NCBI GenBank assembly: GCA_938027685.1
Contig: CALJAM010000008.1
Location: 62,001 to 126,000, forward strand
Length of the DNA stretch: 64,000 bases
Reading direction: 5' to 3'
Origin: an uncultured Bryobacteraceae bacterium
Lineage (GTDB): Bacteria > Acidobacteriota > Terriglobia > Bryobacterales > Bryobacteraceae
The notes below the pieces were generated by a model, which saw only the letters and a list, made by a program, of their open reading frames with translations, was not told where the DNA came from and made no database searches. The position numbers and the translations under genes were made by a program. Below, in pieces: positions 58,121 to 61,959 of the stretch (position 1 is the stretch's first letter; every line of letters starts with the position of its first letter).

Positions 58121-59788
58121 TCAGCCCGTCTCCCACCGTAGCTCGATCGTGTGATCCAGCGGAGAGTAACCCGTCAGATACAGACTCGGGCCGGGCAGCT
58201 TGGGTTCCGCCAACCGCACCTGCGTGTAGGCGTGTTCGCGGAGTCCCGGTCCGATTACCAGCGTATCCGAGCCGATGCGATAGCGAACCGAATTGGCGCG
58301 GAACAGCCAGGCGTCGCTGACCCCGGGCGATGCCTCCACGCCCTCGAGTCTGCCGCCCTCGCGCAGGTTGATCTCCACGGCGACAGGCACCCCGTTGGTA
58401 CCTTGGACTTCGAAGCGGAGTCGAAAGCCTTGGGGCAATTCGCTGATCGTCACACGTTGTAAGAGCCGGCACGTCTCCGAACGCTTCCGTTCTGCCCGGG
58501 TCGCCGCCCATTCCTCGGTACCCACCTGCCGAGGCGGCTCCAGAGGCTGAAAATAGTCGCCCTCGAGCGCCTGCGTGAGCACGTAGCTGTCGGCGCGTTT
58601 CTCGCCGTGCTGCGGGATGAACTGACCGCGGCCGAAAAAGGCGGCAGCCATGCGCACGGCTTCCACGACGGCTAGGCCGCAGCGCACATGGAGCAAGCGG
58701 CTGGTCCCCCGCAGGAACACGGTCGCGCTGAGCGGACCGCGCCGGATGCGTGCGATTCCCAGGGCGGGCATTAAGCGCTCGTAGTGGGCCGGCAGAGGCC
58801 GCTCGGGCGGCAAGGGCCGTAAAAGCTCGGGATACTCCATCACCGTGCTCAGATAAGCGTGGCGCGGGAAAAAGCGCCGCGCCAATGCGGCCAAACGCCC
58901 GTCGCCGTCCCGGATGGCCATGTACTGCAGCGCGAACCAGTGAGGAGCGGCGTCGCCACGCTGGTACTGATCCTGCCGCCGCGAGATTTCCGTGACGACC
59001 TCGCCGTCGGGATGCAGAAGGTAGAGCAGCGAATCCAGATTGCGACGGACCGGCTCCAGCAGTTGGTCGCGGCCCAGCTTAGCCGCCATCACGATCAGAG
59101 CCCGATTCGTGATCGCGTTGTAGACCAGCGTACTGCGCTCCGTGTACTGGCCGTCGGTATCGATGTCAATGCCCTCGGCCAACCACTGATCGATGCGCCG
59201 GAGGCAGGAGGCATCACGATAGAGTTCCCAAAGTTGCGCCAGTGCGGCCGAAACGACCCAGCGGTGATTGGGGGTGTGCACGCCCCCGCGCACGAGCGCG
59301 ACCATGGCGCGCCTCAGGAACGCTTGGGGGAGCGCGGCGAGCTCCCTTTCCCCCGCACGGTGCGCCAGTAGGGCTGCCGTCGCTACGTGGTGCACGCAAA
59401 AGGCGGTATCGGGCGGGGAGTTGAAGTTAGTGATAGGCAGATCTACATTGCCCTCGCTGTTCTGGCAGCGCTCGAGAAAGCCCGCAGCCAGGCGCGCGCG
59501 CTCAACCAACACGGCATCCCGGTGGAAGCGCGAGGCAGGGTGCAAGTATGCGGCCGCGAAAAGCTCCAACGCGCTCGCCGCCGGGCCGGGGAAGTAAAGC
59601 TCGGAGGAATCGGCAAAGCCGCCGCGATGAGGGTTGGCCGGATCGGTGATCTGGCGGCGCAACAGCTCGACTACGGCCTCATCGTGACGACGGGCGATGG
59701 CCGGCTCGAGCTCGGTTGGGACGGCCGACGCCGGCAGGGCGGCGGGCACGGCAGCCAGCAGTTCGCGTCGAGTCAACACAGCAGCCAT
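58121..59788 (-). CDS. Tat-exported alpha-toroid protein, unknown function
   Basis: A 555-residue protein: Tat signal (LTRRELLAAVPAALPASAV), an alpha-helical part of ~330 residues (NFNSPPDTAFCVHHVATAAL, HTPNHRWVVSAALAQLWELY) followed by a beta-rich part. The layout resembles polysaccharide lyases/heparinase II-like enzymes, but I see no clear catalytic motif. ATG 59788 lies 8 bases after a TACTCT -10 and is preferred over an upstream in-frame codon. Isolated on the minus strand. Confidence 0.7.
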   Translation of the reverse strand: MAAVLTRRELLAAVPAALPASAVPTELEPAIARRHDEAVVELLRRQITDPANPHRGGFADSSELYFPGPAASALELFAAAYLHPASRFHRDAVLVERARLAAGFLERCQNSEGNVDLPITNFNSPPDTAFCVHHVATAALLAHRAGERELAALPQAFLRRAMVALVRGGVHTPNHRWVVSAALAQLWELYRDASCLRRIDQWLAEGIDIDTDGQYTERSTLVYNAITNRALIVMAAKLGRDQLLEPVRRNLDSLLYLLHPDGEVVTEISRRQDQYQRGDAAPHWFALQYMAIRDGDGRLAALARRFFPRHAYLSTVMEYPELLRPLPPERPLPAHYERLMPALGIARIRRGPLSATVFLRGTSRLLHVRCGLAVVEAVRMAAAFFGRGQFIPQHGEKRADSYVLTQALEGDYFQPLEPPRQVGTEEWAATRAERKRSETCRLLQRVTISELPQGFRLRFEVQGTNGVPVAVEINLREGGRLEGVEASPGVSDAWLFRANSVRYRIGSDTLVIGPGLREHAYTQVRLAEPKLPGPSLYLTGYSPLDHTIELRWETG

Positions 59789-59796
59789 AAAGCGAC

Positions 59797-59802
59797 AGAG
59801 TA
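59797..59802 (-). promoter_or_regulatory. -10 element (TACTCT), leaderless spacing
   Basis: On the minus strand TACTCT is followed by 8 bases and then ATG 59788. No Shine-Dalgarno is present, so a leaderless mRNA is likely. Confidence 0.4.
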
Positions 59803-59862
59803 ACGCACTGGCCAAGGCAGATCGGCCGCGGCTTGATTAACGGATGTTAACGAAAAAGGGGA

Positions 59863-59890
59863 TTTACAGGTCTGAAATTCGTGCTATGAT
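59863..59890 (+). promoter_or_regulatory. Sigma-70 promoter of the candidate small RNA
   Basis: TTTACA at 59863-59868, 16 bases, then TATGAT at 59885-59890 (as GCTATGAT). It is one of the two best -35/-10 pairs in the window and is followed by structured RNA rather than a gene. Confidence 0.65.
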
Positions 59891-59896
59891 TTAAGT

Positions 59897-59995
59897 AAAC
59901 CTGCTATCCAATAGCATCCCCCGGCGACGAGGCCCAGCTCGTCGCCAGCCCCTCTGAGTGAAGCCCCTAGGCCCAGCTAGGGGCTTCTTCTGTTC
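59897..59995 (+). ncRNA. Candidate ~100-nt structured small RNA
   Basis: Three successive hairpins follow the promoter: TGCTAT-CCA-ATAGCA (59902-59916); GGCGACGAG-GCCCAG-CTCGTCGCC (59923-59946, 9 bp); GAAGCCCCTAG-GCCCAG-CTAGGGGCTTC (59960-59987, 11 bp), then TTCTGTT. The second and third hairpins have the same six-base loop GCCCAG inside the same 10-base context AGGCCCAGCT. The last hairpin plus U-rich tail serves as an intrinsic terminator. No open frame with a ribosome site lies within. I cannot assign it to a known RNA family from sequence alone. Confidence 0.62.
59960..59995 (+). terminator. Intrinsic terminator of the small RNA
   Basis: An 11-bp perfect stem with GCCCAG loop, immediately followed by TTCTGTTC. 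The U-run is interrupted but the stem is strong. The orientation is plus only; no T-run lies on the other side. Confidence 0.6.
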
Positions 59996-60174
59996 AAGAG
60001 CGCCGCTATGCGGCCGTCGACCGGCTTGTTGCCGACCGGACGCGGGCTTTCTATACGCCGCGCCCGCCGCTGGACCGCGCCACGGCTGGAGGACCGCACC
60101 CCGAGAAGGGCTGACCTCAATCTCCGGACCGCAGGCAAGCGACCACCGGACCCGCCGGCGGGAGTTCTCCAACA

Positions 60175-61959
60175 CTACCAGGCCAGGGCCCAAGCGTCAC
60201 AGCGAGGATCGGTCCCCGCTTCGATGACGCCGCGTGCCCAATCGATGACCACCGCCGCATTCGAGCCCAGCGTCCACGGGCCCATCACGCGCACCCGGTG
60301 CCCCCTGGCTTCCAGCGCCCGGCGTACGGTTTCAGGAACGCGCTCTTCCAGCCCGAGGTCGCCGGGGACCATTCGATGAGGGAACACGGAGGAGGGGAAG
60401 CCGCGCGTGGTCCAGCGCGGCGCCTCGATGGCCTGCTGCACGTTCATGCCGAATTCGACGATGTTGAGGAAGGTCTGCATGGTGCGCAGGCACTGATCGT
60501 CGCCGCCCGGGCTGCCCATGGCCATCACCGGCCGCCCATCGCGAGCGACCAGAGTGGATTGCAGCGTGCTGCGGGGGCGCTTGCCCGGCTCGAGCGCGTT
60601 GGCGTGCCCCTCGACCAGCGAAAAGTAATCGCCGCGGCAGTTGAAGCTGAAACCCAGCTCTCCCATGACGACACCCGTTCCGAAGGCCGTGTGGAGACTG
60701 GGTGTAAAGCTCACCACGTTACGCTGTGCGTCCACGATCACCAGGTAGCTGGTGTCGCCCTCGGGCTCCTCCGGGCCTGCGACGGTGTAATCCGCGGGTC
60801 GCTCGAGCAGCTTCATCCCGGGAACGAACCGCTCAGGTTCGCCGGGACGATACTCCAGCGACGCGCGGCCGGGATCGATGAGGCCGCGCCGCAGGCGCGC
60901 GTACTCCTTGCTCAGCAATCCTCCGTAGGGGATCTCGATGCGGTCCTGATCGCCCAGATACTTGTCGCGGTCGGCCATGGCCAGCTTGACGGCCTCGGCC
61001 GAGGTATGGATGTACTCGGCCGAGTTATGCCGCATGGCCTTGAGATCGTAACCCTCGAGTAAGTTCAACGCAAAGAGCTCGGCCGGTCCCTGCGAAGCCG
61101 ACGGATTCTTGTAAACCGCGTAACCACGGTACTCGATGAAGACCGGGTCCTCGATCTTCGCCGAGTAAGCAGCGAAGTCTTCGTACCGGAACAGACCGCC
61201 GTTCTCTTCGGAGAAGCGGGCCATTTCGCGCGCGATGTCGCCTTTGTAGAAGCGGTCGCGGGCGGCACGCAGGGCGGCTTTGCGCCCCTGGCCGGCAGCC
61301 TGCTTTTCGGCCTCGACCAATCTCCGCAACGTGCGCGCCAGATCCGGGTTGCGGAAGATATCGCCGGGCTGCCAGCGGCGTCCATTGGGAAAGTAAAGCC
61401 GCAGGCTCGTCGGAAATTTCCTAAGTTTCTTGGTATTGTTGATGGCGGCTGCGAGTCGGTTACTCAGAGGAAAGCCGTTCTCCGCCATTTCGATGGCAGG
61501 CGCCAGCGTCTCGGCGAAACTCATGGTGCCCCAGCGCTCCAGCAGCAGATACCAGGCGTCCACCACGCCGGGCACGGTCCCCGACAGCAGCCCTTCGTCA
61601 ACCGGGATTTTGCCGCCCTGGTGGGTCCGGTACCACTCGATGGTGGCCAGCCGCGGAGCCGTCCCCTCGGCGTTGAGGGACCAGGCGCGGCCGGCGCGCG
61701 CGTCCCAGACCAGAATGACCGCGTCGCTGCCCACGCCGTTATTGGGCGCGTCGACCAACCCGAGCACGGCCTGGCAGGCGACCGCCGCATCGAAGGCATT
61801 GCCCCCCGCGCGCAGGATCCGCTCCGCCACCTGCGTGGCCTCGGGCTTCATGGACGCCACCGCGTACTGCCTCCCCCGAATGACCGGGCGCAGGGTGGGC
61901 TGCGCCCATCCGGCCTGCGTGAGGATGAGTCCCGTCGTCATCACCCAGACTCGCCGCAT
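60175..61959 (-). CDS. Gamma-glutamyltransferase family protein
   Basis: A 594-residue exported Ntn-hydrolase precursor: signal (MTTGLILTQAGWAQ), KPEATQVAERILRAGGNAFD, PNNGVGSDAVILVWD, and the self-cleavage/catalytic Thr in EGDTSYLVIVDAQRN near residue ~405, followed by FGTGVVMGELGFSFN and RSTLQSTLVARDGRPVMAMG, MGSPGGDDQ. It cleaves gamma-glutamyl bonds such as glutathione. ATG 61959 (MRRVWV) lies 10 bases after the upstream stop; likely co-transcribed with the serine-hydrolase gene. Confidence 0.9.
   Translation of the reverse strand: MRRVWVMTTGLILTQAGWAQPTLRPVIRGRQYAVASMKPEATQVAERILRAGGNAFDAAVACQAVLGLVDAPNNGVGSDAVILVWDARAGRAWSLNAEGTAPRLATIEWYRTHQGGKIPVDEGLLSGTVPGVVDAWYLLLERWGTMSFAETLAPAIEMAENGFPLSNRLAAAINNTKKLRKFPTSLRLYFPNGRRWQPGDIFRNPDLARTLRRLVEAEKQAAGQGRKAALRAARDRFYKGDIAREMARFSEENGGLFRYEDFAAYSAKIEDPVFIEYRGYAVYKNPSASQGPAELFALNLLEGYDLKAMRHNSAEYIHTSAEAVKLAMADRDKYLGDQDRIEIPYGGLLSKEYARLRRGLIDPGRASLEYRPGEPERFVPGMKLLERPADYTVAGPEEPEGDTSYLVIVDAQRNVVSFTPSLHTAFGTGVVMGELGFSFNCRGDYFSLVEGHANALEPGKRPRSTLQSTLVARDGRPVMAMGSPGGDDQCLRTMQTFLNIVEFGMNVQQAIEAPRWTTRGFPSSVFPHRMVPGDLGLEERVPETVRRALEARGHRVRVMGPWTLGSNAAVVIDWARGVIEAGTDPRCDAWALAW

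Follow-up and report, generated by a model that had tools for sequence, protein, structure and literature searches.

A 64,000-nucleotide stretch of DNA from an uncultured Bryobacteraceae bacterium, referred to here as the window, carries a predicted plus-strand small RNA gene at positions 59897-59995 that, judged by its sequence and predicted fold, is a homologue of Acido-1 and not a representative of an unknown family. We lean towards reading it as a stand-alone RNA that runs opposite to the strand modelled in Rfam and would act in trans through its C-rich sites. Few small RNAs have been studied in Acidobacteriota, a phylum of soil bacteria, and for an orphan RNA family dating from 2010 this reading would supply an orientation, the limits of the gene, its promoters and a mechanism open to test.

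Anatomy of the locus

The first-pass annotation of this locus had described a near-consensus promoter leading into three hairpins and an intrinsic terminator at a place with no gene, and all of these elements are present (Table 1). The promoter is the sole match within 59000-61000 (shuffle mean 0.2), and the same-genus copies at loci L029 and L030 have promoters scoring 9/12 and 10/12; the start of the RNA was placed ~7 nt past the -10. The hairpins are a 5' hairpin, a 9-bp hairpin (hairpin 1) and a terminator hairpin with an 11-bp stem, GAAGCCCCTAG-gcccag-CTAGGGGCTTC (59960-59987), followed by a modest T-tract, TTCTGTTC. The segment 59863-59995 folds at -51.8 kcal/mol (z -4.94), a value that 0/200 shuffles equalled. 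A covariance model built here, R1, matches 59914-59960 with 69.7 bits, the window's own copy being part of the R1 alignment. The upstream flanking gene is divergent and the downstream one ends toward the small RNA; open reading frames also span the place, and none is gene-like, because homologues differ there by single-base insertions and deletions.

Table 1. Predicted features at the small RNA locus, in window coordinates.
Feature	Positions	Strand	Basis or remark
TTAAC direct repeat, 10-bp period	59837-59851	+	Lies ahead of the -35; perhaps an activator operator, a lead only
Sigma70-like promoter, TTTACA-N16-TATGAT	59863-59890	+	TG ahead of the -10; 10/12 positions
Predicted small RNA, ~98 nt	59897-59995	+	Fold, promoter and terminator signals; R1 match
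Class-specific 5' hairpin, TGCTAT-cca-ATAGCA	59902-59916	+	Seen in the sequence
Leader GCATCCCCC, C-rich site 1	59914-59922	+	First 3 bases shared with the 5' hairpin
Hairpin 1, 9 bp, GGCGACGAG-gcccag-CTCGTCGCC; loop is C-rich site 2	59923-59946	+	Covariation
Linker AGCCCCTCTGAGTG, single-stranded C-rich site 3	59947-59960	+	Near-invariant in alignments
Intrinsic terminator; loop GCCCAG is C-rich site 4; T-rich tail after it	59960-59995	+	
Rfam Acido-1 (RF01686) match, model positions 1-64	59923-59987	-	Opposite to promoter and terminator

Relation to Acido-1

A default-mode Rfam search of the window returned no matches, because the best score lies below the RF01686 gathering threshold, set at 50 bits. 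With permissive settings, the whole Acido-1 model (RF01686) can be aligned to the minus strand at 45.0 bits (E 1.3e-7). The empty default search is therefore misleading as a sign of novelty, and the Rfam check that the annotation had proposed, with Acido-1 named among the families, finds the family already catalogued. Of its proposal of a candidate undescribed small RNA, the small RNA gene with covarying stems and C-rich loops is supported, and "undescribed" is not, Acido-1 being a family already known by name and structure.

The gap to the cut-off is bridged by relatives. Loci L040, L041, L073, L089, L091, L100 and L101 score 52-86 bits against RF01686 (12 copies above the cut-off, from 7 of the 20 loci scored), and since they share the same core, we regard the window RNA as an Acido-1 homologue just under threshold. 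It has the two hairpins and the conserved linker over 64/64 model positions and an acidobacterial host, the same-genus loci L029 and L030 also appearing under Bryobacteraceae-labelled records (L074 and L075). Acido-1 as described by Weinberg et al. (2010; PMC2864571, consulted in part) likewise has these two hairpins, the linker and an Acidobacteria host. Unlike the RF01686 model, the window RNA appears to be read from the opposite strand, as its promoter and terminator signals indicate; its 5' module and promoter lie outside the 64 model positions, and its hairpin-1 loop is GCCCAG, whereas Rfam-like copies have the longer UCCCCUCC. Scanning 396 genomes of the phylum with RF01686 gave 2/396, a count that says little because only 12 candidates per genome were scored.

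The portions of PMC2864571 consulted contain no statement on the strand of Acido-1. Beyond the family's known name and structure, several points appear to be new, none of them met in the parts of the literature searched: the direction of reading, the limits of the gene, the division into promoter classes, the site upstream and the role suggested for the C-rich runs.

Homologues and conservation

A DNA search of 61 genomes found matches at E < 1e-4 in 16/37 genomes of the window's family (L042 partial only) and in 0/24 outside it, and revealed a second copy in the window's own genome (C1:65985-66064). The covariance model likewise finds two copies in that genome; with 150 candidates per genome scored, it matches in 13 of 37 genomes, that is 13/23 of the window family and 0/14 of sister families. 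Scanning named genomes with a pattern yielded 39 stretches, 38 of them labelled as Acidobacteriota lineages; L088, which carries a Bacteroidetes label, failed the stem test as a family member and looks like chance. A stricter pattern was present in 48/150 family genomes, of which 3 look chance-like by eye, and the reversed control gave 7 matches. The 396 phylum genomes, which include few members of this family, had the pattern in 8 places, and a stem could be seen by eye only in the window genome's own 2.

We analysed 54 distinct homologues, with an alignment set of 46. Both sets exclude L042 (partial), L059 (contig end), L038 (without the GCATC anchor) and the tandem copies whose linker is CTCTCTGAGTG. 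L088 and L105, which matched but have no stem, were removed by hand before the count of 46. Of the two L061 copies, one entered the set of 46 but did not pass the 7-bp stem test required for the set of 54. Copies with too little flank reduce terminator-tail counts to 45 of 46 copies and promoter and palindrome counts to 52 of 54. Row L081 of alignment A2 is misregistered at its ends.

The annotation had suggested a covariance search across related genomes, and hairpin 1 does covary: 8/9 pairs changed on both sides and 95.5% of cells are paired, a result that 0/500 shuffles reach and that all slid controls fall far below. It had also pointed to a loop, GCCCAG, common to two hairpins with different stems. 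In the homologues, CCC is kept in 44/46 hairpin-1 loops (alignment read by eye) and in 43/45 terminator loops while the stems vary, and on these alignments the sharing of the loop by hairpin 1 and the terminator exceeds chance. The linker is near-invariant across the alignments, an invariance that is partly built in because the linker served as a search anchor.

Many genomes have more than one RNA copy. The Rfam-like copies of L040, L041, L073, L091 and L101 form tandem pairs ~160-300 bp apart, each copy with a promoter-like site and a terminator, and one linker in each tandem pair of L040, L041, L073 and L101 (4 copies) is CTCTCTGAGTG.

Direction of transcription

Promoter-like sites lie on the sense side of 40/52 copies and on the other side of 2/52, the sense promoter being below the thresholds used in 12/52; a T-rich tail follows the terminal stem on the sense strand in 37/45 copies and on the antisense strand in 0/45. 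In every one of the 12 copies above the RF01686 cut-off, TRGACA-N17 followed by a -10-like hexamer stands at one fixed sense-side place. At a strict promoter score of at least 9, 8 of these 12 have a sense upstream promoter and none has an antisense one; a relaxed score of 8/12 positions is reached on the antisense side in 4/12, without a fixed place. Because the promoters, the T-rich tails and the fixed promoter-like pair lie overwhelmingly on the sense side, RF01686 appears to model the reverse complement of the true RNA. If this is true, the Rfam entry needs strand reversal, since the GGG loops of the model are CCC loops in the transcript.

Wobble pairs and folding energy divide by subclass. 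Outside the Rfam-like subclass, hairpin 1 contains 11 G-U against 3 A-C on the plus strand, so the sense strand fits the wobble pairs there; in the Rfam-like subclass (6 distinct rows) it contains 6 A-C cells and 1 G-U, A-C being G-U on the minus strand, and 7/8 copies fold better on the Rfam strand. This behaviour may account for the strand chosen by the original pipeline. As a strand test for the remaining copies, folding energy is undecided (sense better in 23/45).

Two front ends

A 5' hairpin, AAGTC-N-GACTT, is found in 28/54 distinct copies, and a sigma-54 -24/-12 site, located 50-58 nt upstream of the core, occurs in 21 of these 28 and in 0/26 others; the window's copies are of the other class. 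Among the AAGTC..GACTT copies, the L126 site is just under threshold, L056 is cut by a contig end, and five have no sigma-54 site: L140 and L141 (sigma70 score 10/12), L087 and L096 (8/12) and L061 (no sigma70 score). Proteins of the sigma-54 family are above cut-off in 10/10 genomes tested.

Upstream of the sigma-54 sites lie palindromes like TGSGNGAWWTCNCSCA, as at L037, L055, L066, L104, L130 and others. A match of at least 11/16 is present in 22/22 sigma-54 copies against 2/30 others (shuffle control mean 2.2, max 6), the pattern, like the TTAA pattern below, having been read from the same sequences later scored. The best palindrome is 43-103 nt before the -24 site and has a second one 17-23 nt away in 19/22, a layout expected for enhancer-binding protein sites; by this arrangement, the paired palindromes are likely the site of an uncharacterised enhancer-binding protein. 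By naming a regulator site, the sigma-54 class offers a route to the signal controlling the RNA. No other promoter with a paired upstream site was found in 796 kb, ~1/5 of genome G026, where the RNA itself scored 39.9 (its sites being in the matrix), the next candidate 22.4 and the control geometry at most 21.2.

Other candidate regulator sites adjoin the sigma70-like promoters. Upstream of the -35, TTAA is directly repeated at an interval of 10-11 bp in the window, L030, L033 and L079 (N6) and in L048 and L052 (N7); TTAA-N6-TTAA thus occurs in 4/17 class-A1 upstream regions, the window included, and the N7 form in 2/17, with no word pair exceeding 3 in 50 shuffles and the pattern chosen post hoc. 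OmpR/PhoB-type regulators often bind direct repeats of such a 10-11 bp period, and the TTAAC repeat upstream of the window copy hints at a response regulator, as a lead only. GRTCYGAAA-like letters in the promoter spacer, a possible regulator site, are found in 9/9 Rfam-like copies (loci L040, L041, L073, L081, L089, L091, L100 and L101) and in 3/17 class-A1 copies, those of the window's genus; in the window they occupy 59869-59877.

A proposed C-rich regulator

Comparison among homologues supports a plus-strand small RNA gene with conserved C-rich loops: a promoter, a covarying hairpin and a terminator are kept as a unit, and paralogues have different promoters. C-rich runs stand at four places, in the leader, the hairpin-1 loop, the linker and the terminator loop. 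The small RNA would be transcribed from the plus strand and act in trans: G-rich stretches of mRNAs would pair with its redundant C-rich sites in an LhrC- or 6C-like manner, possibly with Hfq. The copies would give one output to different inputs, through a sigma70 promoter in the window copy and sigma-54 in others, and a single enhancer-binding protein might work the sigma-54 copies. We base this proposal on the four C-rich sites, the analogy to LhrC and B11, and the presence of Hfq and sigma-54. The Hfq family is above cut-off in 10/10 genomes tested, weakly in G001 (29.8 bits). More than one Hfq match is seen in 9/10, and genome G000 has weak extra Hfq-like matches beside Hfq proper at C9:92073-92234 and C29:141076-141240.

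With a shade less assurance, we also favour a broader view: that Acido-1 has been on the wrong strand since 2010 and is a multicopy C-rich regulator across Bryobacteraceae, in which a core is joined to swappable 5' modules and promoters, including a sigma-54 class under a TGSGNGAWWTCNCSCA-binding protein that maybe mainly serves this RNA.

The B11 RNA of Mycobacterium abscessus is a relative of 6C RNA, for which Rfam includes a model; the search, run up to E 10, gave 5 Rfam matches, none of them to that 6C model. In the part of the B11 report consulted, two C-rich loops act redundantly on a G tract (PMC10470900), as the C-rich loops of the window RNA might, but the two RNAs have no sequence match, and the conserved linker and the leader are extra in the window RNA. 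LhrC of Listeria monocytogenes, in the part of its report consulted, distributes three redundant CU-rich sites over a loop, a linker and the terminator (PMC4132741). Both LhrC and the window RNA are multicopy, and in both a C-rich motif recurs in the loop of a hairpin, in an unpaired linker and in the loop of the terminator; in contrast, we found no sequence relation, and the hosts belong to another phylum. LhrC was absent from the same 5 matches, although Rfam may lack an LhrC model. The sister class resembles another group in promoter layout. Qrr, GlmY and CrcZ are sigma-54-driven small RNAs and share with that class a sigma-54 promoter with upstream activator sites, whereas the window copy has a sigma70-like promoter.

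Complementarity to gene starts, which would go with an LhrC-like blocking of the Shine-Dalgarno region in target mRNAs, gave a weak and divided result. In a sample of 589 G026 genes, with start codons picked with a bias to AGGAGG, 6-mer complements of the leader (23 at starts vs 11 in inner regions) and the linker (34 vs 25) appear slightly commoner at starts, and those of the loops do not (loop 1, 18 vs 29; terminator loop, 43 vs 62). For the window's 44 genes, the counts were 1 vs 1 (leader), 1 vs 1 (linker), 5 vs 3 (loop 1) and 7 vs 1 (terminator loop, with G026 letters).

Alternative explanations

A serious rival, to which we give a real but minor share of belief, is that the plus-strand RNA is a decoy whose C-rich loops and linker titrate an RNA-binding protein with no mRNA pairing, much as CsrA sponges titrate their protein through GGA loops. 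In favour of such a decoy, the loop is kept as the stems change, each RNA has a similar site four times over, many genomes carry at least two copies, and the loop complements of the G026 sample are no commoner at gene starts; against it, the conserved linker, at 14 nt, exceeds the usual repeated protein sites, and we know of no CCC-loop-preferring protein in such genomes. That Rfam is right, with the minus strand and its GGG loops as the functional Acido-1 and the plus promoter incidental, we consider unlikely. RF01686 was built on that strand, and the A-C cells, the better folds and the relaxed promoter scores of Rfam-like copies lean toward it, but promoters and T-rich tails are at 2/52 and 0/45 there, the wobble pairs of the other copies favour plus, and the sigma-54 sites, which are directional, are on the plus strand.

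With a divergent gene on one side, the end of a convergent gene on the other and a terminator as its second hairpin, the locus might also be no small RNA gene at all, just a terminator working in both directions or a cis element belonging to a neighbour. This is very unlikely given the RNA's own promoter, the tandem copies that each have promoter and terminator, and neighbours that differ among copies, the commonest neighbour family being found at 6/46 and in differing places. Scarcely credible is a short mRNA encoding a small peptide: a GTG-started frame does cross the terminator, but it extends beyond it, terminator-loop lengths differ by single bases among homologues, and conservation tracks the stems.

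Genes beside individual copies

Among 17 neighbour proteins compared by Pfam, no shared function was found. On the upstream side, an adenylate kinase gene adjoins the RNA in the sigma-54 copies of L090 and L055 (Pfam) and L066 (by similarity), and a lactate permease gene lies near it in those of L090 and L104 (Pfam) and L055; both probably reflect shared ancestry of place. At L061:3577-4049, two RNA copies follow a same-strand tRNA gene.
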